Of a stretch of 64,000 nucleotides of DNA, positions 25,679 to 37,774 are shown piece after piece (within the stretch, counting starts at the first letter, position 1; every line of letters starts with the position of its first letter). The stretch comes from Bacteroidota bacterium (lineage in GTDB: Bacteria > Bacteroidota > Bacteroidia > Chitinophagales > Saprospiraceae). The notes under the pieces were generated by a model, which saw only the letters and a program-made list of their open reading frames with translations, was not told the origin of the DNA and searched no databases. The position numbers and the translations under genes were made by a program. The stretch lies in contig WGNL01000023.1 in assembly GCA_016124585.1 (NCBI GenBank), positions 1 to 64,000 of the forward strand. The letters run 5' to 3'.

Positions 25679-26794
25679 TCACTCCACATACGCATCCACC
25701 GTTTTGATGCTGCCGTCCGGCAGATAGGTCAGTTCCGTCATTTTGATGCTCCGCAAATGCGTCTTCCCGCCCGATAGCACACTGTCATGGTAGAAGAGGT
25801 ACCATTTGCCATTGAACTCCATGATGGAATGGTGGTTCGTCCAGCCGATGACCGGGTTCAGCACCACGCCTTTGTACGTGAAAGGCCCGTATGGACTGTC
25901 GCCGATGGCATAGCAGATATTGTGCGTATCGCCTGTCGAGTAGGAGAAGTAATATTTGCCGTTGTACTTGTGCAGCCAGGAAGCTTCAAAAAAGCGGCGG
26001 CTATTGTCCTTGGCCAGTAGCGGCTTGCCGTTCTCATCAAGTATCTGCACATCTTTAGGTGCCTCCGCAAATCCGAGCATATCGCCTTTCAGCTTGGCCA
26101 CTTTCGGCATGAGCGCAGGCTCGTCATCCTTCGGATAAACGTTTTCAGGATTGTATTTCCCCGTTGCCCAGCGCTGTAGCTGCCCGCCCCAGATGCCGCC
26201 GAAGTACATGTACGAGCTGCCATCTTCATCCGTGAAAACGGCAGGGTCAATGCTAAAACTACCCTCGATGGGCTTGGCTTCCGGTGTGAACGGCCCCGTC
26301 GGGGTGGCTGCTGTCGCAACACCGATATGAAAGATGTCGTCCTTGTCCTTCACTGGAAAATAGAGGTAGTATTTGCCATCCTTCATGGCAGCATCGGGTG
26401 CCCACATCTGGCGCTTGGCCCAGGGCACATTCTTGATGTCGAGCGCCACGCCGTGGTCGGTGACAGGGCCGCCGGGCGTGTCCATGCTGTACACATGGTA
26501 GTCCCGCATATCGAAATGGCCACCCTCGTCGTCTTCTGGTATGGCGGCATCAATATCATGCGAAGGATAGATATAGATTTTGCCATCAAAGACATGCGCC
26601 GAAGGGTCGGCGGTGTAATTGTCCGTGATAAGTGGCTCGGAAATGGGTTTCTTATTGCCAAGCAGAGCCGTGTAGTCCTTGGCGGGAGGAGCTTCGGTAG
26701 CCTCGGTGGCGGGGGCTGGTTCATTGTTCTGGCAGGCGGTGAACGCCATTGCGAACAGCAATAAATAGGTCGTCTTTACGAAGTGTTTAAACAT
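25679..26794 (-). CDS. Glycoside hydrolase family 43 lipoprotein
   Basis: 371 residues. Lipobox at Cys21 (LLFAMAFTACQNN). The rest is a five-bladed beta-propeller of GH43: the general base is Asp63 in NYTADPSAHVF, the pKa-modulating Asp is in SIDPAVFTDEDGSSYMYFGG, and the acid Glu is in FFEASWLHKYNGKYYFSYST. GH43 enzymes cleave alpha-L-arabinofuranosyl or beta-D-xylosyl linkages in plant and algal polysaccharides. The protein should sit on the outer membrane. No SusC/SusD pair is adjacent, so this is not a classical polysaccharide utilisation locus. Confidence 0.93.
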   Translation of the reverse strand: MFKHFVKTTYLLLFAMAFTACQNNEPAPATEATEAPPAKDYTALLGNKKPISEPLITDNYTADPSAHVFDGKIYIYPSHDIDAAIPEDDEGGHFDMRDYHVYSMDTPGGPVTDHGVALDIKNVPWAKRQMWAPDAAMKDGKYYLYFPVKDKDDIFHIGVATAATPTGPFTPEAKPIEGSFSIDPAVFTDEDGSSYMYFGGIWGGQLQRWATGKYNPENVYPKDDEPALMPKVAKLKGDMLGFAEAPKDVQILDENGKPLLAKDNSRRFFEASWLHKYNGKYYFSYSTGDTHNICYAIGDSPYGPFTYKGVVLNPVIGWTNHHSIMEFNGKWYLFYHDSVLSGGKTHLRSIKMTELTYLPDGSIKTVDAYVE

Positions 26795-27003
26795 GGCCGT
26801 ATGTTTTGTTGATTTAAAGTTTAAATGTCGGAAAGGTAAAAAGCTTATGGCGAATCTTTGCGTTTTGCCACACTGCTTTACTACGTCGATCGCTACTCAA
26901 ACACAGACCGACTACGCCATTACCGCATTCCTGAACTATCATCTGTGCAATTCTTGGAGCAACACAGCGTTTTAGCTCGAATTTTTCACCTAAAATTGCA
27001 TTC

Positions 27004-27966
27004 ATGAAAACGAACATTCTCCTATTTGCCCTCTTGCTGTGCGCCCCGGCCATTGCACAAACCGACTACGGCCGTGCCGATGCCTTCGCCACCAATTTCA
27101 ACGAACCCTATGCTGACATGGCCGACCTCGCCCAAAAACTGACCGCACCTTTCCAGTCGGAAGAGGAGCGGGCGAGGGTGCTTTTCATCTGGATAGCCCA
27201 AAACATCAGCTACGACTGCAAGAAATTCCATAACCCGACCAGGCACAGCGTGAGCGCCCAAAGCAAGGAGGAACTGCTGCGCAAGCGGCAGGAAGTGGAG
27301 GCCAAGGAAATGGCCAAAAGTTTCAAGGCCAAGAAGGGGGTCTGCGCCGACTACAGCCAAATCTTCAAGGCCATGTGCGATGCCGTCGGGCTGGAAGCCG
27401 TGGTCGTGACCGGCGATGCCCGTGATTTCCACCGGCCCTACCGCAACAACCAAAACAACTCCCACGCCTGGAACGCCGTGAAGATTGACGGGCAATGGCG
27501 CCTGATGGACGCCACCTGGGCCGCTGGCTATGTGAACCCCGAAGTCACGAAATTTACCCGAAAGCTGTTCCCCGGCTTTTTCATGACAGACCCTGCTTGG
27601 TTCGTGCAGAGCCACTTCCCTGACGACGAGCAGTGGCAATTGCTGGAAACACCCATCAACAAAAAGACCTTCCCTGACCAGCCGCTCATCAATTTTGGGC
27701 AAGAGGACTACCCGCTGCTCGGCTTTTCCATTGCTCCGCAAAAAACCGCCAACGGCAAGGGCTACGAACTCCGGTTCCAATTTGCCAATACCCCCAAGGC
27801 GTTCATGGTCACCACCTTCAATTCAAAGCAGATTGGCTTTGAAACACGGGAGGAAGACGGCTGGGTAGTGCTGAGTTTCACCCAAAAGCCCAGGGAAATC
27901 ACGGTATTTGCTGGGGAGTCGCCCCGGCAGCACATGAGTTGGCTAGCTAGGTATGAGCTAAAGTGA
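27004..27966 (+). CDS. Transglutaminase-like (papain-fold) exported protein
   Basis: 320 residues with signal peptide (LLFALLLCAPAIA, cut before QTDYG). The transglutaminase core holds the triad Cys114 (KKGVCADYSQIF), His154 (NNSHAWNAVKID) and Asp169 (WRLMDATWAAGY), in the style of the kyphoscoliosis peptidase-related family, followed by a beta-rich C-terminal domain. Such proteins may act as proteases or protein crosslinkers; here probably in the periplasm. Eight bases after its stop the first 21-bp tandem array begins, so the array would be transcribed as its 3' region unless terminated. Confidence 0.88.
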   Translation: MKTNILLFALLLCAPAIAQTDYGRADAFATNFNEPYADMADLAQKLTAPFQSEEERARVLFIWIAQNISYDCKKFHNPTRHSVSAQSKEELLRKRQEVEAKEMAKSFKAKKGVCADYSQIFKAMCDAVGLEAVVVTGDARDFHRPYRNNQNNSHAWNAVKIDGQWRLMDATWAAGYVNPEVTKFTRKLFPGFFMTDPAWFVQSHFPDDEQWQLLETPINKKTFPDQPLINFGQEDYPLLGFSIAPQKTANGKGYELRFQFANTPKAFMVTTFNSKQIGFETREEDGWVVLSFTQKPREITVFAGESPRQHMSWLARYELK

Positions 27967-27973
27967 GGTCGCC

Positions 27974-28372
27974 ACATCCACTCATTTCGTGAAAAAAGGC
28001 TGGATTTTCATTCCAACAGGCACCCATTTCCTTCACAAACGAAGCCTATTTGCATAAAAAGGCATTCCGGTGCTAAACAAAGGCTGTCCGTACGTAAGCA
28101 AAGGCAGCCTTGTTGTAAAGAAAGTCAAGTTTCCCGTTCCTGAAGGCGCTCCGCCCACAAAGAAAGGCAGCCAGTCCGTAAACGAAAGCAGCCAGTCCGT
28201 AAACGTTGGCGGCCCGTCGCTAAAGAATGGCGCTCCGTCCGCAAAGAAAGGCTGCCAGTCCGTGAAGAAAAGCCGTCCAGTCGTAAGCGCTGGCATCCCG
28301 TTAGTAAACAAAGGTTGTCCGTTCGTAAACGAGGGCAGCCCGGCGTTAAAGAAAGGCAGTCCGTTGGAAGTC
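27974..28372. repeat. Tandem array 1: 19 units of 21 bp in perfect register
   Basis: Nineteen consecutive 21-nt units without a single insertion or deletion; consensus close to AAAGGCAGTCCGTTCGTAAA plus a final C. Units diverge by substitution but keep GGC at positions 4-6, the CCGT block and the TAAAC end. Unit boundaries were walked base by base (27974, 27995, 28016 and so on to 28352). Read on the + strand the units encode a KGCPxVN heptad, open from 28058 to 28525; on the minus strand a second frame is open from 28311 to 28033. 27992-28037 is identical to 33642-33687 in array 2. There are no spacers, so it is not a CRISPR. Confidence 0.92.
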
Positions 28373-28431
28373 TATTTTAACGATTTTCCAGCGTCGGGCC
28401 TGCCTGATGGTAAAGGTTCTTCCCCCACAGA

Positions 28432-28545
28432 CGTTGGTTTAAGTCCCGGGTTCGAACCATCTATCAGCCTGTCTCAGACACATATAAGCGAGACAGCCAA
28501 CTTGCTTTCCTCGGAGGCGACATGAAAAGAGAACAAGTCTGGATA
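28432..28545 (+). repeat. Dispersed structured element, copy A
   Basis: Begins with a hairpin resembling a tRNA T-arm (TGGTTTAA, loop, TTCGAACCA at 28435-28459), then CTGTCTC / GAGACAG arms around a TATAAGC loop, and ends with GAACAAGTCTGG. Aligns with copies B and C on the same strand. It lies 60 bp after array 1. Confidence 0.75.
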
Positions 28546-28603
28546 CAATGCGAAATAAATTGAATTGGGGGAGTGATTGGGGGGCATCGTTGATAATGAA
28601 AAC

Positions 28604-29266
28604 TCAATTCCGTGAATACTTATATAGTTCTTGGTAGAGTTCAGATGACTGCCATATTTTTTGGCAAAAATTATCAATTTCAGTTGGCGAAGCTTCACTT
28701 TTTAAAATCTTCAAACTAAGCATCCTCTCTTCAGCCATAAATTCTTCTTTTGCAGGTAAAATGCTAAGCTCTTTACCAAATAATTCTACCGTATAATTAA
28801 TCGGAGTTGCAGCAAAAACAAATATTGTTGAATCAGCTTCATGGATTTGTTTTGAATCAATTGTTGAATATATTTCATCAATATAATAATTGAATTTAGG
28901 CTTTATTAATTGTTTTCTAATGGCTTTTTTTCCGTGTTTTAGTGTACATAGTTCAGCTATCTTTTCAAACCATTCTTTAGTATAACCTATTTCTAGCAAA
29001 TTTGCAGCGTATATTTTCGAAAACAAAATTTCTAAACCCTTGTCAATATTGTCGTTGTCACGATAGCAATCCACAGCAAGAAGTAAACCTTTTAATCGTA
29101 TTTTACTTTCAAATCCTGAACAATCCATGCCTGAGATGTGATAATTTATAGCTGATTTATAATATTTATCGCAGTCAGAAAAATAAGACGAATCCACTGC
29201 ATTTTGAGAGAAGGTCATTTTTAGAAAGAAAAACGATATAAATTGTATAAGTGCAAACCTCTTCAT
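28604..29266 (-). CDS. Exported protein of unknown function
   Basis: 220 residues from the ATG at 29266; the open frame upstream reads through dispersed element copy D and is not coding. Signal peptide KRFALIQFISFFFLKMTFS, then a polar, helix-rich mature part with an early CDKYYKS segment and a second cysteine. No recognised domain. The gene is much more AT-rich than the beta-propeller genes on its right, which may indicate a different origin. It is flanked by element copies A and D. Confidence 0.7.
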   Translation of the reverse strand: MKRFALIQFISFFFLKMTFSQNAVDSSYFSDCDKYYKSAINYHISGMDCSGFESKIRLKGLLLAVDCYRDNDNIDKGLEILFSKIYAANLLEIGYTKEWFEKIAELCTLKHGKKAIRKQLIKPKFNYYIDEIYSTIDSKQIHEADSTIFVFAATPINYTVELFGKELSILPAKEEFMAEERMLSLKILKSEASPTEIDNFCQKIWQSSELYQELYKYSRN

Positions 29267-29294
29267 TTTAGTAATAATAGTTTTATACTTTACT

Positions 29295-29343
29295 GGAGAA
29301 ACAAGTCTGAAGAATTGCTCCAGCATAATTGGAACATTCAAAA
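29295..29343 (+). repeat. Dispersed structured element, copy D (3' tail only)
   Basis: A 49-bp match to the tail of copy C (37726-37774), with about 42 identical positions: GGAGAAACAAGTCTG, then CTCCAGCATAATT and a TTCAAAA end. The 5' hairpins of the element are absent. Confidence 0.8.
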
Positions 29344-29366
29344 TTAACCAACACCTCATCACACCA

Positions 29367-30881
29367 TCATTTCACCACCACCAATTTTTTCATTATCCCG
29401 CCTTCCTTGCCGGTGATTTTGACAAAATAGATACCACTAGGCAAGGCAGAAACATCCATTGTTTTGAGCAGCTCGCTTGAGCATGTATCGGTTAGCAGTA
29501 GATGGCCATCCGTAGAGAAAACCTCCAACCGGATTTTGTCAACTGGGGCATTTTCAAAAACGATTTGAAACACCCCGTCCGTTGGGTTGGGGGCTATGCT
29601 GAAGGAGAGCGGAGCCACAGCCCTGTCCACCGTGGCACTGGGGAGCCCGAGGCTGTCACAACCACTGCCAATGGACGGCCCGGTGCGGAAATGTGGGAAA
29701 TTGGGCAGTGTGTTCCCGCTGTTGTAGGTCAGGTAACTCAAGCTAGGCGTGTGTTGATGGACCTCGCAGGCCAAGCCCGGCAGGTTGGGTTTTGCGATAA
29801 AATTGAGGCTTTGCGCTGGAGCAACCGATGAAATGTAAATCTTCCCGTCTGGCCCCAATTGCTGGCGGCCAAAAGAAACCGGATAAATAAAATCAATGAA
29901 CCCGTCCCATTCGCCAACGGCAATACCTGAAGCGGGTAGGTCGGCTACCCAAGTGTCGTATTGGTGAAGCCGCAAATAAGAGGAAACATAGAGGTAGCGG
30001 CTGTTAGGTGAAAAACCGCAGCCATAGGCGTCGTCGCTTTCTGCAGCTTTTTCAGGATGAAATGAGGCATCCAAGGTCAAAGTGCCATCGCAGCGGTCAA
30101 AGGACCAAACGGATACCAAATTGCTGTCAGGGTAGGCGATGGCAAATTTGTTACCGTCGGGCGAAAAGGCGGATTGCCCTGTGAATCCCGAATGGAAATG
30201 GACACCCCAAGAAAGCTTGTCCACCGATTGGATGCCTGCTGGCGTGAGCAGCATCCGGTAAAACTTGCTTTCGTTGTAAGCGCCCACTACTATCCACCAA
30301 TCCCTGCCATTGCCATGCTGCACAGCCTGTAAAGTGCCATACAGCAGCGTGTCCTGCACCAGGTTCTCGTTTTTGGCCACCATCTTTCCTGCCCCATTGT
30401 TTTCCGACATATCCACGATGCTGTAATCCAGCCGAAAAGGCTGCAAATCATTGTAGCCATTAAAGAGCCGCCCAGAAAGGTGGAAAAGGAAGTATTGGCC
30501 AGGATGGTCTGGATAAGGCAATATGATAGCACATTGGCTCATGGGCAGATAATTGACGCCAAGCATGGTCACGATACTGTCCAAATTGAAACCCTCGCTG
30601 CCCTCCATTTGCTGGTGGTGACGGTCGGCAACATAGACTCCGTTGGTGTAGAAGAGCAGGTTGCCGTCATCATCGCAGATGCTGGCATCGGTATCGTCAA
30701 GTTCGTAGGGACTGTAAAAAGCTGTGGTATCGGGATAGCCCCAGTAAAAATCAAGCCCCGCAAGCAAGCCGGGATAATAGTTGTAACCCATCAGCCAGAC
30801 GTTATCCCATTTTTGTGCAAAAACATTGGCGGTAGATAGCAGGCAGCAGATAAAGAAGCAATAGTGGCGTGTGTTTTTCAT
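29367..30881 (-). CDS. T9SS-secreted beta-propeller protein
   Basis: 504 residues. Signal peptide (YCFFICCLLSTANVFA, cut before QKWDN). The body resembles a WD40/PD40-like propeller of the kind found in Bacteroidota T9SS cargo: DDDGNLLFYTNGVYVADRHHQ, LQAVQHGNGRDWWIVV, FSPDGNKFAIAYPDSNLV, GFSPNSRYLYVSSYLRLHQYD, QLGPDGKIYISS. A T9SS type A domain ends the protein (IAPNPTDGVFQIVFEN ... GIYFVKITGKEGGIMKKLVVVK). Its start lies 9 bp after the stop of the 30891 gene, so the two form an operon. Function unknown; likely surface exposed. Confidence 0.88.
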   Translation of the reverse strand: MKNTRHYCFFICCLLSTANVFAQKWDNVWLMGYNYYPGLLAGLDFYWGYPDTTAFYSPYELDDTDASICDDDGNLLFYTNGVYVADRHHQQMEGSEGFNLDSIVTMLGVNYLPMSQCAIILPYPDHPGQYFLFHLSGRLFNGYNDLQPFRLDYSIVDMSENNGAGKMVAKNENLVQDTLLYGTLQAVQHGNGRDWWIVVGAYNESKFYRMLLTPAGIQSVDKLSWGVHFHSGFTGQSAFSPDGNKFAIAYPDSNLVSVWSFDRCDGTLTLDASFHPEKAAESDDAYGCGFSPNSRYLYVSSYLRLHQYDTWVADLPASGIAVGEWDGFIDFIYPVSFGRQQLGPDGKIYISSVAPAQSLNFIAKPNLPGLACEVHQHTPSLSYLTYNSGNTLPNFPHFRTGPSIGSGCDSLGLPSATVDRAVAPLSFSIAPNPTDGVFQIVFENAPVDKIRLEVFSTDGHLLLTDTCSSELLKTMDVSALPSGIYFVKITGKEGGIMKKLVVVK

Positions 30882-30890
30882 GTCGCAGGT

Positions 30891-33443
30891 TTATATTTTG
30901 ATGAATTTTTGAGACAAGACGCCTTTCCCCGTTTGGAACAATAGGAAGTAGATGCCGGGTGGCAATGCTGCCGTGTCCAATGTCACGCCGTCGTTGCCCT
31001 GCGATTTGGTGCTGGCTACCTCAAAGGTCTGACCAGCAGCGTTGACGATGCGCATTTCACCATACGCCACGCCATGCACCACGCATTGTAGGTAATCGCT
31101 GGCAGGGTTGGGGAAGGCTTCGATGAAAGGATGTTGTGCCGCAGCCTCTTGGCTTGCGGTAAAGCAGCTTGGGTCGTCAATGACGGTTATTTGCGAAGCA
31201 AAGACAACCGTGTCTGCGCCGCCACCGTTACTGGCCACCAACGTTACGGTGTAAGTGCCGGGTTCGGTATATTGAACAATAGGGCGGGACTCGCTGGAAT
31301 ATTCCGGCGTGCCACCGGGGAAATGCCATTGATAATCTAGGTAAAGTGCTGATGTTTCCGCTCCAAAAAATACGTACTGGTGTTTGCAGATTTCGGTTTT
31401 GTTGGCAAAGATTTCTACCTGCGGTGGCACAAAATCAAGAATGCCTACATGGTTGAACTCTCTTCTTGTGATAGAATTGTCCGTGGAGATGGAGGGGAAA
31501 AAGCCTGTAACGAGATAGCGGTGGTCGCCTAATGGGGCCGCCACATAGGGTTGGAAATAAGAAAGATAAGTCCAGGTGTCGCTGCCATCGTACCGCCAAA
31601 GGCCACCGTTGGTGACTGTGCAGTAGAACTGGCCATCCATTTCCGTAAAACGGGCAAAGCCGAACCCCTCGTGGTCGTATAGTCCTGAACTTTCCCATTC
31701 GTTGCCGTTCCACCTGAACGCACCTGTTCCCCATCCATCCGGCCCCACATAGTCCTGGGTCAAATACAGTTCGTCATCGTAGTTGTACAAATGGCCTTCA
31801 CTGAGGTATTCCGAGCCCATGTAAGACCAGCCATAGGTGGTAGTATTGACCATGACGGGCATATCGAAATCAATGCTGGCGACCAGGTTCCCTTGCCATT
31901 CGGTGAGCCAGTAAATGGTGGAGTACATATCATTTTCCCACGGGCCGGGCACCTGCTCCCAAGTGCTGCCGTTTAGTCTTGCGAGGGCAGTCACCGGGTT
32001 GCCGTTTAGTTGGGTAAAATCCCCCCAAGCATAGAGGTCGCCGTTTAATTCCAGAAATCCCCGCACCCGTTTGTCGGCACCGGAACCGATGGGCTGCCAC
32101 GCCGTGCCGTCCCATTTGGCAATATTCTTTATTGGCGTATTGCCGCTTTTTGTGAAATTCCCGCAAGCGTACAAATTCCCATTAAACTCCTTGACTCCCG
32201 ATACAATCCCGTTGAACCCCTTGCCCATGGTTTGCCAGTCCTGTCCGTCCCATTTGGCGATATTGGGGGAGTAAACATTTCCAGCAAACTCGAATCTTCC
32301 CCCCACAATCAGGCTGTTTGGCTCTGCGCAGTATCCCGATGCGTTGAGCCAGGCATCATTGTAGCCGCTGCCGCCGATATAGCCCGGTGAGGCCCACGCA
32401 TTGCCATTGTATTTGGCCAATGAAAGTATCGGCTGGCTGTCCAGTTCCCTGAACGTTCCGCCTACCCATAAATCGCTGCCCATCTGCTTGGTGACATTCA
32501 CTTGGCTGTTGTTGTAATCGTTGGGGATTTTGCCAATGTCCAATAGCCCGCCCGTGAGCCTGACAAAATGCAGGTTGCCGGAAAAGGCTGAGTCCGTTAT
32601 CACCCAAATATCATTGTCATAAACGAACATACCCTCCAGCGAGGTAATGGATTGCGGGAGTAAAAAATCGATCCAGATGTTGCCGTTCCACTTCAATATT
32701 TTATTGTAAACTGTTTGAATATAATATTGGTTTTGAAAGCGGACAAAGGACAGGGCGGTGTAGATGCTGGAATCCTGCAGTTCCGGCAGTTCTGCCCATG
32801 AGCCGTTGACCATATAGGAGGCGACATGATGAAGCCCCCCTAGTCCTTGGTAGGCGGAGCCATAAGCCCAAAGTGTGTCCTGTACGACTAGCAGCCCTTT
32901 GGCATGCAATGGGCTATCGAGGCCGCTGTCCGTCCAGGTATTGCCGTCCCAAACCGCTACGCCTTTGTTTTCTACGTTGCCCACCTTCGTGAAATGCCCG
33001 GTAGCATAGAGTTTGCCCTGAAACCATTCAATGGCCAGTACCGAGCCATAGCCATTTGTGCCATCGCCAAGCGGGTGCCAAGCCGTGCCGTCCCAACGGG
33101 CGATGTGGTTTACTTCCACTCCGCTGGCCGTCTCGAAATAGCCGCCCACATACAGGTTGCCGTCCACATATTTCAGGGCATAGACCGCCCCCTCCACACC
33201 CGATGCCAGGGTATGCCATTCTCCGTTTTCGAGGTAGGCGATACTGGACGTCTTCATGTCCCCAATGGCCGTGAAATAGCCGCCCACATAGACCCTGCCG
33301 TGGTCGGGGTCCTGTTCTATGGCATAGATGCTACCCTGCATCTTTAGGCCGTCGGCCAGTGGATATATGTTTTGGGAAAGAAGTGGATGGAGGCTGCACA
33401 AGAAGACTAACGTTGTGCAGGCGGAGAAAAGCAAGTTTTTCAT
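30891..33443 (-). CDS. T9SS-secreted kelch-like propeller protein with PKD domain
   Basis: 850 residues. Signal peptide (LFSACTTLVFLCSLHPLLS, cut before QNIYP). About 600 residues consist of repeated propeller blades with motifs such as NGEWHTLASGVEGAVYALKY, DGNLYVGGYF, WDGTAWHPLGDG, NIAKWDG. A PKD domain follows at about 700-765 (LYLDYQWHFPGGTPEYSSESRPIVQYTEPGTYTVTLVASN), then a T9SS domain (EAFPNPASDYLQCVVHG ... GIYFLLFQTGKGVLSQKFIKI). First gene of a two-gene operon with the 29367 gene. Probably a cell-surface or released binding protein. Confidence 0.88.
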   Translation of the reverse strand: MKNLLFSACTTLVFLCSLHPLLSQNIYPLADGLKMQGSIYAIEQDPDHGRVYVGGYFTAIGDMKTSSIAYLENGEWHTLASGVEGAVYALKYVDGNLYVGGYFETASGVEVNHIARWDGTAWHPLGDGTNGYGSVLAIEWFQGKLYATGHFTKVGNVENKGVAVWDGNTWTDSGLDSPLHAKGLLVVQDTLWAYGSAYQGLGGLHHVASYMVNGSWAELPELQDSSIYTALSFVRFQNQYYIQTVYNKILKWNGNIWIDFLLPQSITSLEGMFVYDNDIWVITDSAFSGNLHFVRLTGGLLDIGKIPNDYNNSQVNVTKQMGSDLWVGGTFRELDSQPILSLAKYNGNAWASPGYIGGSGYNDAWLNASGYCAEPNSLIVGGRFEFAGNVYSPNIAKWDGQDWQTMGKGFNGIVSGVKEFNGNLYACGNFTKSGNTPIKNIAKWDGTAWQPIGSGADKRVRGFLELNGDLYAWGDFTQLNGNPVTALARLNGSTWEQVPGPWENDMYSTIYWLTEWQGNLVASIDFDMPVMVNTTTYGWSYMGSEYLSEGHLYNYDDELYLTQDYVGPDGWGTGAFRWNGNEWESSGLYDHEGFGFARFTEMDGQFYCTVTNGGLWRYDGSDTWTYLSYFQPYVAAPLGDHRYLVTGFFPSISTDNSITRREFNHVGILDFVPPQVEIFANKTEICKHQYVFFGAETSALYLDYQWHFPGGTPEYSSESRPIVQYTEPGTYTVTLVASNGGGADTVVFASQITVIDDPSCFTASQEAAAQHPFIEAFPNPASDYLQCVVHGVAYGEMRIVNAAGQTFEVASTKSQGNDGVTLDTAALPPGIYFLLFQTGKGVLSQKFIKI

Positions 33444-33602
33444 GAAGATAGCGATTTGAAGGCAAGGTAATGAAAAGACGTTTTAGATTTTTGTACACCC
33501 CTGCTTTTTTAGGAAAAAACAACCGCAATACGGGGCGAACCCCAAGCCGCAGCAGCTTGGAAGGTCTTTTTTGGCAAGAATTAAGGCAAGATTTTGGTGA
33601 GA

Positions 33603-33939
33603 AACAGCATGCCGTCCATAAACAACAGCATCCATTTTCTTAAAAAAGGCTGGATTTTCATTCCAACAGGCACCCATTTCCTTCACATAAGCTGTCCGTC
33701 CGTAAACAAAAGGAGCCAATTACCAATCAAAGTCGAGGACTTACTAATCAAAAATCAGGACTTACTAAACGAAGCCAAGGAATTGCTAAACGATGGCTGG
33801 CAATTACTAAAGAAAGGCATCCCCGACATAAACTCAAGCTGCCGTGGAAAAGCCAGCTCTCAAAAAATTACTAAACGATGCCACTCATTTGGAGGTCAAT
33901 GGCTTCCATTTAGTAATCAATGCCATCCATTTACTGATG
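33603..33939. repeat. Tandem array 2: about 16 units of 21 bp
   Basis: Second array of the same type as 27974-28372. Units start at 33603, 33624, 33645, 33666 and onward; the register is kept through 33854, one unit (33855-33876) has an extra base, and three more units follow to 33939. Units are more diverged (for example AAAGTCGAGGACTTACTAAT plus C) but keep the (T/C)TA(A/C)TAAAC end. Units 3-4 (33642-33687) are identical to units 2-3 of array 1. An ORF of 153 codons (33594-34055) runs through it without looking like a protein. Confidence 0.85.
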
Positions 33940-34091
33940 TATTGCCGACCCAAAATGATTGCTGTGGAGGCTTAAAAGCTCAAAACCTTCTAATTTTTGA
34001 ACTTGGAAAGCCTGAAGAAACCGTTAGCCGCTGCCGAGGTTTAAAGGCAAGGTAATGTGTTAGCCCCTGTCGTTAAGGAAAAACACCCAAA

Positions 34092-34231
34092 ATATGTGGT
34101 TCAAATCCCCAGCTTGAACCACATATTAGCTAGTCTCTGGCAGGTTCAAGCGAGCTAGCCGACGTGCTTTCGTCGGATACGAAAAAAAGAGAAACAAGTC
34201 TGGAGATTTGTTCTAGCGTAGGAAGTCCTAA
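34092..34231 (+). repeat. Dispersed structured element, copy B
   Basis: The most complete copy. It opens with a perfect 13-bp hairpin (ATATGTGGTTCAA 34092-34104 with TTGAACCACATAT 34114-34126) whose 5' arm and loop resemble a tRNA T-arm. Then GCTAG / CTAGC arms, a CCGACG / CGTCGG hairpin (34159-34176), and the tail GAAACAAGTCTGGAGATTTG with a CTGGA / TCTAG pairing. It lies 152 bp after array 2. Confidence 0.8.
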
Positions 34232-34274
34232 ATAAAGGCTTAATTATTAATTTCACCTCTTCTAGCTAACCAAA

Positions 34275-34556
34275 ATGATTAAAATGAAAGTAAATGGTTT
34301 TATTAAAGAGCATGATAAGAATTCAACATTTTCTATACCGTTTAAACAATATAGTATAACTTCTCTTGGTGGGTATGAATTTGAAGCTGACTTGATATTA
34401 AAATATTTAGAAGAAGGAGCAGTTGTTGTAAGTATGTTGCATTGGGTTAATGATTTTGAGACTAATATACCTATAGGGCCGCATATAATAAGAACAGATG
34501 GAGAATGGTTGTGGCCTGATTACATCACTCACTATATAAAGATGGGCCATCATTAG
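34275..34556 (+). CDS. Small protein of unknown function (possible immunity-type)
   Basis: 93 residues from ATG 34275 (or 90 from ATG 34284). No signal peptide. The C-terminal part has DGEWLWPDYITHYIKM, a pattern I recall from small proteins of unknown function in diverse bacteria where a DGxWxWP motif is conserved; some are encoded near polymorphic toxins, but no toxin is seen here. The gene is AT-rich and follows copy B by 43 bp. Function not assigned. Confidence 0.6.
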   Translation: MIKMKVNGFIKEHDKNSTFSIPFKQYSITSLGGYEFEADLILKYLEEGAVVVSMLHWVNDFETNIPIGPHIIRTDGEWLWPDYITHYIKMGHH

Positions 34557-35126
34557 TTGATATTGCCTGATTTTTTCATGCATATGAAGCAAAATAGTCT
34601 TGTTTGTCCAAATGTGTCTGGCGAGGAGCTAAAGGTAGTACAAAGACATTTTCTCTTAATTTCGAATTCTGTGTCATGGAGCCCAAAATAATTGGTAGTG
34701 TTAGCCTATTCATGTCCGTAAAACAAGACTTCCTCTTACTGGCGCAGCGTCTTCCCTCGCAGAGCTGGTTCGTATTCCGCTTTCTTCGACTATTACGTGC
34801 TGGCCAAGAAATTGCCATCAAATCAAGCCCCAACGAGGAGCGGTTTGAGGTGCAGAAACAGGCCATGCTGAAGGACAAAGGCAGGGTGAATATAGGCATT
34901 TCATGTAATGATTCTACATGTAAAAAAAACTATTTGATAAAAATGCCACATGGTCAATACCTTTGAGGCTTCCATTTCGCACACCTAAGTAAGAAGATAG
35001 ATGCGCTGGTCTATGGGTTGTTTAGGTTGGAGGAGAGAATGAAAATATTTGAAAGAACCGTTATCAAGTGACATAGTCAAACAAGGCTGTAACCTTAATT
35101 CGTCTCTAGCATTAACAAAAAAGTTT
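34557..35126. other. Region with possible degraded gene remnant
   Basis: No convincing intact gene. Between about 34690 and 34900 the sequence is richer in GC than its flanks, and protein-like fragments appear in two adjacent + frames (SYSAFFDYYVLAKKLPS, then SPNEERFEVQKQAMLKDKGR), consistent with a frameshifted remnant. A 120-codon frame (34604-34966) and an antisense frame cross it but neither reads like a real protein. Confidence 0.4.
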
Positions 35127-37634
35127 ATGAAAAAAGCATTACTTATTTTATTCCTTACGGCAATTGCACCGAAATTATTTAGCCAAAAATTTGTTGTAGG
35201 ATCCACAAAAGGAGGGGGTATTCACAATACTGGCTCCTTTTTCAGGTTGAACATGGAGACCGATGAACATGAGGAATTTTTCAGTTTTAGCGCACTAGGC
35301 CCTTTTGACCCCATCGCATATCCATTGCAAGGTTCCGATGGTAGGTTGTATGGTGAAACCAGACAAGGTGGGGATTTGAATGTGGGAACGGTGTTTTCCC
35401 TCAAGAAAGATGGGTCTGATTTAAAGGTATTGCATTCATTCAACGGGCAAGATGGACAAAACCCTAGTAATGGGCTTTGTGAAGCAAGCAATGGTAAATT
35501 GTATGGAATCATTGGGAGTAGTACAAACTATGGTAAAAGCGTTATTTATGTTATTGATAAAGATGGGGAAAACTTTGAAGTATTGCATGAACTCAGCCAA
35601 TTGGAATGTAAAGCCCCTTCTGGAGGCCTTATTGAGCACCTTGATGGGTACTTGTACGGGCTAGGTTTGTACGGTGGAACACTTGATAAAGGTGTTATCT
35701 ACAGAATCAAAAAAGATGGTACGGGTTTTCAGGTTGTGTATGAGTTTGCTGGTGGCTTAAATGGAGAAAGACCTGTTGGGCAATTGGTGTCAATGCCAAA
35801 CGGCAATTTATATGGTGTTACTAATAGTGGTGGTAGTGATGGTGGAGGCATTTTTTTTAGGTTTTCCACAACAAATTTTAACCTTGATATGCTACATGAT
35901 TTTGTTGACGATAATAAGGGTATTTCACCCATAGGTGGTTTGACTAAAGTAAGTAACGGTTACTTATATGGACACACTGCTGCTGGTGGAACCTATAATT
36001 TAGGGACAATTTACAGGATAGATATAAATGGCAATAATTTCAATGCCATCTTAGATTTTAATTGGACAGATGTTTTGCTTCCCAAGGGTAGAATGGTCGA
36101 GGCGCAAGGAAAGTTATGGGGAATAACTTCAAATTTTGTCATTCAGGGCAACGAAGGCAGTATTTACAGCATTGATAAGGATGGCTCCAATTTGGAGCAA
36201 GTCCATTATTTCTCTTCCTATTATGACACAGAGTCAACCACTGCATTGGCAGTAGGTGATGACGGGAATGTGTATGGGTTTACGGCATATGCTGGATCGG
36301 GGAAGCGTGGAGGTGTGTTTTCCATCAATACTGACAATCTTGCGTTTACGGAAATAAAGAATTTCACAACCAGCATTGGTAATGGATTTTATCCTTCTGA
36401 GATGATTGAGGGAGAAAATGGGATGTTTTACGGTAGTTGCAGCGAAGGTGGCAACTATGACAAAGGAGTAATTTACAGCTATAGAAAATCAGATGGAGCT
36501 TTTTCTGTTCTGCACCATTTTGATGATATTGAAGGAGCGCAACCACTCGTTTTGCTTTTTGGGCCAGACGGAAAACTCTATGGAAATACTTTGCATGGTG
36601 GAGACTTTGATGAAGGGACAATCTATCGCATGGAAATGGATGGTTCCAATTTTCAGTTATTGCACTCATTTGATAGCATTCAGGGAGCTCTGCCAATTTC
36701 AATGTTGATTGGTTCCGATAATAATTTATATGGTATCACAATAAATGGCGGCGTTGACAATGGCGGTATTGTTTACAGAATACCAATGGACGGAAGCTCT
36801 TTTACGGTTTTGAAGAGTTTTTTGACGAGTGAAGGGTTTTTCCCTTCAGATATATTGGAAGGAAGCGATGGTTATTTATATACTACATTATCAGGTGGTG
36901 TGCTTGGTGCAAATGGTAGCATGTACAGAATGATGAAAGATGGCTCAATGTTTCAAGCTGTCCATTCATTTGTAGCGAGTTTGGAAGGCAAATCTATTGG
37001 CGGGATGATTGATGGTGACAATGGGTACATATATGGGTTAGGAGGCCAAGGAGGATTGACGAACGGAGGTGTACTGTTTAAGATAGGAAAAGATAGCTTT
37101 GATTTCTCGGTTGCCTATAATTTTGCAGAAATAGAAGACGGGTTTTCCCCAATTGTCTTATCCAAAGACTCATCGAATGTTTTGTGGGGGCTCACAAGTG
37201 CAGGCGGCACAGAGCTGAATGGATTGGGCACACTTTTTAGCTGCAATTTGGATGGCTCAAATTATATTAACCATTATAATTTTGAGGGCCTAAAAAGCTT
37301 TTTTATTGAGGGTAAAAGTGGCCTATTGTTTACCGATTTTCCGACTTCTTCTGTATCTGATAGCTATATTGAAAAAAACATTATTTCAATATCCCCCAAT
37401 CCAAATAATGGCAATTTTAAATTCTTCCAGGGTGATTCTGCGCTAGATAATAAAAATTTTAAATTTTCAATGACCTCATCATCTGGTAATAGTAGCCATT
37501 TTTTAATAGGAAATTTGAATGAAGTAAATAGTTATATCGCTGAAATAGCGCCACTATTAAACAGTGGTGTTTATTTTATTAGTTTAACTGAGGGCAGCTT
37601 CACTTACACCAATAAAGTGATTGTGATCAAATGA
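35127..37634 (+). CDS. T9SS-secreted tandem-repeat (GloVer-type) propeller protein
   Basis: 835 residues from ATG 35127, which begins a signal peptide (KALLILFLTAIAPKLFS, cut before QKFVV); the frame upstream is not supported. The body is a run of roughly 50-65-residue repeats with the signature GGxxxxGxIYRIxxDGSNFxxLHSF and GSDGYLYGxTxxGG, matching the Gloeobacter/Verrucomicrobia repeat (TIGR03803-type) that folds as a propeller. The C-terminus is a T9SS domain (ISISPNPNNGNFKF ... GVYFISLTEGSFTYTNKVIVIK). Markedly AT-rich compared with the kelch-like operon. Element copy C begins about 20 bp after its stop. Confidence 0.9.
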   Translation: MKKALLILFLTAIAPKLFSQKFVVGSTKGGGIHNTGSFFRLNMETDEHEEFFSFSALGPFDPIAYPLQGSDGRLYGETRQGGDLNVGTVFSLKKDGSDLKVLHSFNGQDGQNPSNGLCEASNGKLYGIIGSSTNYGKSVIYVIDKDGENFEVLHELSQLECKAPSGGLIEHLDGYLYGLGLYGGTLDKGVIYRIKKDGTGFQVVYEFAGGLNGERPVGQLVSMPNGNLYGVTNSGGSDGGGIFFRFSTTNFNLDMLHDFVDDNKGISPIGGLTKVSNGYLYGHTAAGGTYNLGTIYRIDINGNNFNAILDFNWTDVLLPKGRMVEAQGKLWGITSNFVIQGNEGSIYSIDKDGSNLEQVHYFSSYYDTESTTALAVGDDGNVYGFTAYAGSGKRGGVFSINTDNLAFTEIKNFTTSIGNGFYPSEMIEGENGMFYGSCSEGGNYDKGVIYSYRKSDGAFSVLHHFDDIEGAQPLVLLFGPDGKLYGNTLHGGDFDEGTIYRMEMDGSNFQLLHSFDSIQGALPISMLIGSDNNLYGITINGGVDNGGIVYRIPMDGSSFTVLKSFLTSEGFFPSDILEGSDGYLYTTLSGGVLGANGSMYRMMKDGSMFQAVHSFVASLEGKSIGGMIDGDNGYIYGLGGQGGLTNGGVLFKIGKDSFDFSVAYNFAEIEDGFSPIVLSKDSSNVLWGLTSAGGTELNGLGTLFSCNLDGSNYINHYNFEGLKSFFIEGKSGLLFTDFPTSSVSDSYIEKNIISISPNPNNGNFKFFQGDSALDNKNFKFSMTSSSGNSSHFLIGNLNEVNSYIAEIAPLLNSGVYFISLTEGSFTYTNKVIVIK

Positions 37635-37653
37635 GACGTAGGCAATATTTAGA

Positions 37654-37774
37654 ATCACATATCAGCCTGTCTCTGACAGGTATAAGCGAGGCAGCAGACC
37701 AACTTTCGTTGGATACGAAAAGAAAGGAGAAACAAGTCTGGAAGCTTGTTCCAGCATAATTAGAACTTTCAAAA
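37654..37774 (+). repeat. Dispersed structured element, copy C
   Basis: Aligns with copy B from the right arm of the first hairpin (ATCACATATCAGC) onward: CTGTCTC / GAGGCAG arms around a TATAAGC loop, CCAAC / GTTGG hairpin (37699-37712), GGATACGAAAAG, then AAACAAGTCTGGAAGCTTGT with CTGGAA / TTCCAG arms. It directly follows the 35127 gene and may be its 3' untranslated region. Confidence 0.8.

Follow-up and report, generated by a model that had tools for sequence, protein, structure and literature searches.

Features of the window

The window, that is, the whole stretch of DNA analyzed here, comprises 64,000 nucleotides at the start of a 270-kb contig in a genome of 6.63 Mb. A type IX sorting domain in one gene of this contig and the relatives of one window gene indicated a Bacteroidota genome. 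Two degenerate tandem arrays and a leader segment common to both were located in the window as follows.

27977..28375, no strand assigned: array 1, a 21-bp unit repeated over 19 positions, with a clear core at 28061-28375
27983..28037, plus strand: leader of array 1; 55 bp align at 95% identity with the leader of array 2, and 45 bp are identical
33611..33957, no strand assigned: array 2, a second degenerate 21-bp array, located by lag-21 and unit scoring
33633..33687, plus strand: leader copy at array 2, located by its match to the leader of array 1

The sequence-only reading of this DNA had described nineteen 21-bp units in unbroken register. The 21-bp periodicity is real. Across 27974-28372, array 1 had a lag-21 identity of 0.56, compared with 0.33 at lag 20 and 0.36 at lag 22. 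The best stretch of 210 bp reached 0.61; the mean for the window was 0.27 (sd 0.04). The consensus of the unit was approximately GGC-NNC-CCG-TCC-GTA-AAC-AAA. No excess was observed at a 7-bp period in array 1 (identity of 0.16 at lag 7 and 0.18 at lag 14).

The units were scored with leave-one-out profiles. At 28061-28375, 13 of the 15 units were above the 99.9% quantile of the 21-mers in the window; unit 28271 passed the 99% quantile and unit 28124 did not fit. Among the four units ahead of 28061, those at 27977 and 28019 passed 99.9%, that at 28040 passed 99% and that at 27998 did not fit. No register shift was seen by this scoring across 27977-28375. Thus, the array keeps a single register, but the count of 19 is slightly generous, since units 27998 and 28124 do not fit. 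The open frames reported for both strands proved to be partial: ORFs cross array 1 at 28070-28525 (plus strand) and 28033-28311 (minus strand), whereas at least one stop occurs in each of the six frames over the full 27975-28373.

Copies of the window arrays and the palindromic element

Arrays 1 and 2 were mutually related in the array-pair comparison (z 8.5) and could be aligned only with many gaps. Beyond these two arrays, no copy of the 45-base leader was found in the genome within three mismatches, and a 40-base portion of it was absent from 198 other genomes drawn from the family. Bases 33635-33957 of array 2 showed an 81% match to array 3 (C43:89429-89751, minus strand), with 62 substitutions and no gaps in 323 aligned bases. 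Array 3, 56 kb away, sits upstream of C43:90237, a member of the gene family described below. No family gene was found beside either window array. Therefore, arrays 1 and 2 are orphans that may be displaced or left-over copies, maybe without a present function.

To the right of both window arrays, and also elsewhere, stands a palindromic repeat with a length of about 110-130 bp. Its copies, all in the same orientation, lie at 28433-28545, 34095-34222, 37652-37762 and, in part, at 29296-29330. The right-end palindrome, AACAAGTCTGGAGACTTGTTC, was detected in the genome (three mismatches or fewer) only at 29300, 34193 and 37731. Related copies of the element are present in two sister species, and these had no array in the flanks shown; the element was rejected as a part of the array system. 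In 28543-29330, the first palindromic copy has no right end and a lone right end is found at 29296-29330; GAGAA(A)CAAGTCTG is shared by the two. The gene between the split ends, called at 28604-29362 on the minus strand with a likely start near 29266, looks as if it had been inserted into the element.

Occurrence of 21-bp arrays in the genome

A lag scan with a single threshold was applied to 1,067,596 bases of the own genome in 52 stretches. It gave 24 matches at lag 21, 19 at lag 42 and 13 at lag 63, and at most two at every other lag from 10 to 63. Array thresholds were applied to 105-bp windows (84 bp for loci in other families), and a score at 42 or 44 bp that equalled the one at 21 or 22 bp was assigned to the shorter period. 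Genes were called as greedy ORFs in genomes that are partly fragmented. Stretches from the same genus (441,750 bases) contained four lag-21 arrays, and those from wider relatives (344,539 bases) contained one.

One of the 24 matches in the own genome, L048, was coding, and the remaining 23 were noncoding. Of these 23, 17 have no adjoining family gene. These orphans lay between convergent (four), co-directional (five) or divergent (two) genes, or at stretch ends where one neighbour is known (six); no neighbour gene common to them was found among the neighbours compared. The units adjoin directly without unique spacers, which ruled out a CRISPR array. The unit sequence varied from array to array, and a clear sequence relation (z > 4) was detected in 8 of 276 array pairs. 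In the 21-bp array at L057:226-435, adjacent units resemble mutual reverse complements, giving a 42-bp repeat. Two further matches were discarded: that at L040 is a 7-bp microsatellite, and the weak model match in G011 appears to lie in coding sequence.

In another genus (G146), 383,132 bases were scanned, with 13 of the 20 stretches picked around family genes. Other periods occurred here too, for example eight matches at lag 33. Two noncoding 22-bp arrays and one 20-bp array were distant from family genes. The two 22-bp arrays are at L214:4558 and L214:10603, and one of them is followed some 500 bp downstream by a gene of 339 aa with no match to the family model.

The window arrays could be copies of a mobile repeat, namely a MITE with an internal minisatellite similar to BrickBuilt. 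According to the portion of the report consulted here, BrickBuilt of Porphyromonas gingivalis has one 23-nt unit common to its copies, a leader, a tail and small inverted ends (PMC4596501). As with BrickBuilt, in the features covered by that portion, the present arrays occur in Bacteroidota as intergenic, spacer-free tandem arrays, several per genome, with a leader segment and with whole units gained and lost (PMC4596501). In contrast to BrickBuilt as described there, the period is 21 or 22 bp, the unit is new at nearly every locus and the arrays are tied to one gene family (PMC4596501). Arrays 1, 2 and 3 are mutual copies at separate places, and arrays 1 and 2 have a common leader and a palindromic element to the right of each, as a mobile repeat would predict. 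However, one unit sequence common to the copies, as in BrickBuilt or a MITE, was not found in the 276 array pairs or at the G146 loci, where the units differ, and copies of the palindromic element in sister species had no array in the flanks shown. A mobile repeat is thus an improbable origin.

Arrays upstream of a CarboxypepD_reg gene family

In the members of the family, about 240 aa at the N terminus, which include a C[S/T]Q motif, precede a C-terminal CarboxypepD_reg domain (12 of 12). For the N-terminal part, no match above the curated cut-off was obtained in Pfam or NCBIfam, and weak matches appeared in PADLOC, PDB sequences and PHROGs. The proteins are not basic (median pI 6.4, n = 25). 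No partner gene was found among the neighbours compared, and no relatives of the family were found in viral contigs.

The own genome encodes 12 full-length members. Nine of these have an upstream array at lag 21, with identities of 0.53-0.72; the value for L138 was 0.45, and L136 and L137 have none. No upstream array was detected at 12 other loci (one fragment and 11 sharing CarboxypepD_reg alone). All six family genes inside the sampled sequence have an array upstream. Of 651 other genes of at least 150 aa in the sampled sequence, 13 have an array in the 700 bp ahead of them; compared with 9 of 12 family members, this gave a Fisher p of 1.6e-12.

The association extends beyond the own genome. 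Family members are present in 5 of 13 sister species, and 11 of the 20 members there have an array, every one upstream. In G146, an array was observed at 12 of 13 loci among the matches listed (ten at 21 bp and two at 22 bp), and the thirteenth locus has no upstream sequence. In six other families of the order, it was observed at 16 of 26 loci among the matches listed (twelve at 21 bp and four at 22 bp). Two of these four 22-bp loci, L220 and L221, are identical upstream and therefore not independent. The sole other best period that reached 0.5 at the other-family loci was 33, at one locus. Outside the genus, the loci tested were those that came with 26 of 43 places, and up to seven candidates were scored per genome (up to 13 in the G146 step). 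Altogether, 48 of 71 family loci among the matches listed, in seven GTDB families, have an upstream array, 42 at 21 bp and 6 at 22 bp. The other 23 are without an array, some of them having little upstream sequence.

At several loci, the array ends within about 100 bp of the start codon (L131, -59; L134, -45; L185, -85). At L130 and L132, runs of GTTGATAAC-like repeats that make up a long inverted repeat lie between the array and the start codon. The Bacteroidota promoter consensus was uninformative, so that the arrays were not placed relative to the transcription start. The short distances would suit an array that acts as RNA, in which a transcribed leader carries repeated binding sites that control translation of the gene. 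However, the distance reaches several hundred bp at some loci, the units are unrelated between loci, and no Rfam covariance-model match was found at E<=1 in the window region 26000-36000. We therefore consider it unlikely, to a marked degree, that the arrays work as RNA leaders.

Turnover of unit sequences

Family loci contributed 43 lag-21 arrays, in which the similarity of the units rose only slightly with protein identity (Spearman 0.10, p = 0.004). Units can be unrelated at a protein identity of 76-78%, and one pair at 85% has common units. The arrays in G146 are mostly near-perfect with differing units, and two close paralogues have a common unit. An alignment of the arrays at L045 and L024 has three gaps, one of exactly 21 bp and two of a single base; the arrays at L044 and L045 could be aligned only with many gaps. 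These results show that the unit sequence is replaced faster than the proteins, and the period outlasts the sequence.

Helical phasing and coding frame

The sequence-only reading had left two possibilities, a phased DNA-binding array or a peptide-repeat coding array. These were compared in a set of 35 arrays. The weak own-genome arrays L056:2840 and L026:16590, the coding match L048 and the relatives' arrays L039, L106, L108, L094 and L117 were left out of the set, as were the G146 and 22-bp arrays. Ten G146 arrays were tested separately, and none of the entropy tests included the six 22-bp arrays.

The column entropy within the units of the 35 arrays had an excess of power at 10.5 bp (z 5.6). 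By set, z was 4.7 for the 20 gene-linked arrays, 3.1 for the 15 orphans and 5.4 for 12 other-family arrays, which were examined afterwards. With a stricter null that preserves three-column blocks, the values at 10.5 bp were 3.3, 1.5 and 3.2, respectively. The 3-bp harmonic was without excess in the same three sets (z -0.1, -1.3 and -0.8). In the ten G146 arrays, z was -0.6 at 10.5 bp, 5.8 for the one-per-unit component and 2.1 at 3 bp. Thus, conservation follows 10.5 bp and not 3 bp in three of the four sets, and related loci have 21 or 22 bp, as expected for helical phasing; the G146 set does not agree with this.

Substitutions between related arrays were analyzed by period. Array 2/array 3: The substitutions peaked at 10.5 bp (p = 0.002, or about 0.03 when corrected for the 17 periods tried). 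L243/L230: The p value at 10.5 bp was 0.01. L185/L187: The p values were 0.049 at 10.5, 0.003 at 5.25 and 0.006 at 21 bp, and 3 bp was weakly favoured. L045/L024: The p values were 0.42 at 10.5 bp and 0.003 at 7 bp. Noncoding control: The p values were 0.54 at 10.5 bp and 0.006 at 21 bp. The outcome is mixed overall, yet it supports 10.5-bp phasing.

AT content within the units showed no excess at 10.5 bp against other noncoding 21-mers (z 0.4), and a component at 5.25 bp was detected in the 35 arrays (z 2.8, p = 0.004). This half-turn component had z values of 2.5, 4.6 and 2.2 in three sets and -0.6 in the other-family set. In a wedge-model estimate, tiled consensus units were most curved at period 21 (end-to-end ratio of 0.68, compared with 0.87 at 20 and 0.86 at 22). 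In this model, the curvature of the real arrays did not significantly exceed that of column-shuffled controls (p = 0.16). Dyad symmetry across units gave a combined p of 0.005; since only three orphan arrays were individually significant, it was rejected as a general feature of the unit.

If the arrays coded for seven-residue repeat peptides, a unit of 21 bp would equal seven codons. The ORFs on both strands of array 1 and the slight 3-bp excess in G146 (z 2.1) are consistent with this. However, the 22-bp arrays at six loci break the codon frame; therefore, the frame is not the general cause of the period. Stops occur in all six frames in 9 of the 35 arrays. A check of substitutions by codon position, proposed with the sequence-only reading, gave 14/24/24 for array 2/array 3 (p = 0.20), which is no bias, and array 3 contains a stop in the frame used. 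The entropy of array 1 by codon phase was flat (1.12, 1.20 and 1.15). These results largely refute coding of heptapeptides, and we consider it very improbable.

The period might also arise without any function. Errors of copying or repair in this lineage could tend to duplicate two helical turns, and the resulting minisatellite would persist in long, tolerant upstream regions. The units differ from locus to locus and change more quickly than the proteins, near-perfect young arrays are found at G146, L157, L163 and L235, and orphan arrays are numerous, all of which fit such an origin. In contrast, the tie to one gene family across seven GTDB families, with few arrays at other genes (13 of 651), does not, nor does the absence of indels in the 323 aligned bases of arrays 2 and 3 despite 62 substitutions, nor the 10.5-bp conservation in degenerate arrays. 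A functionless minisatellite is thus unlikely, although of the alternatives it deserves the most weight.

Comparison with known repeats and interpretation

Plasmid iterons are tandem direct repeats of about 20-22 bp that are helically phased, lie upstream of rep genes and differ between replicons. The present arrays are similar in that tandem direct repeats with a unit of 19-22 bp lie upstream of the gene at 48 of 71 loci among the matches listed. Unlike the rep genes of iteron plasmids, the 12 own-genome members gave no Rep domain match in Pfam, NCBIfam, PADLOC or PDB sequences, and CarboxypepD_reg alone passed curated cut-offs. In addition, the arrays occupy about a dozen chromosomal loci per genome, and their units change while the neighbouring protein stays similar. 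Phased A-tracts and other curved upstream DNA have a helical-period arrangement upstream of genes, which the arrays share; however, the AT content of the arrays has no 10.5-bp excess, and their excess of curvature is not significant. The TAACTGA heptamer repeats of some Bacteroidetes are, in the part of the source consulted, intergenic direct repeats of a fixed 7-bp sequence that often lie upstream of genes (PMC4679880). The present arrays share the intergenic, often gene-upstream position and the taxon with the repeats as presented there, but as a class they have no fixed sequence, and array 1 is without the 7-bp period (PMC4679880).

In the open literature searched, in which some queries gave no results, we found no published description of arrays at a gene family that keep their period and vary their unit.

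On balance, we lean towards the interpretation that array 1 is an isolated representative of a class of tandem DNA arrays that are in phase with the helix, are kept by their period and probably act as DNA on an adjacent promoter. A helically phased DNA element is the likely nature of the arrays. Within the class, the period (21 bp and sometimes 22 bp, two helix turns) is kept and the unit sequence is not, and the region upstream of family genes is the usual site. The same face of the DNA would be presented every two turns, and a protein could line up on this face; alternatively, the array may bend in one plane. The protein on one face, or the bend, would affect the adjacent promoter. Candidate binders are the product of the neighbouring gene and a nucleoid protein. 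The neighbouring family protein is possible as the binder but not favoured, because its pI is near neutral and the units change without the protein changing. We infer protein binding, bending and promoter regulation by the arrays from these patterns.

More tentatively, the arrays may constitute a class of cis-acting DNA elements that inherit helical phase and not sequence: family loci in several families of one order would retain or re-make a two-turn array, the unit of which is freely replaced. To our knowledge, no known kind of element keeps its period alongside a gene family but not its unit sequence. An alternative classification would call it an unusual promoter-side minisatellite.

These findings bring to light a hitherto undescribed protein family, of which two genomes each hold about a dozen copies. 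If our interpretation is right, its genes have as a partner a DNA element that is invisible to ordinary motif searches, because spacing alone is kept. The arrays would then offer a natural test of how bacteria read the helical phasing of DNA, as well as of the origin and renewal of tandem arrays that keep a constant step of two turns.
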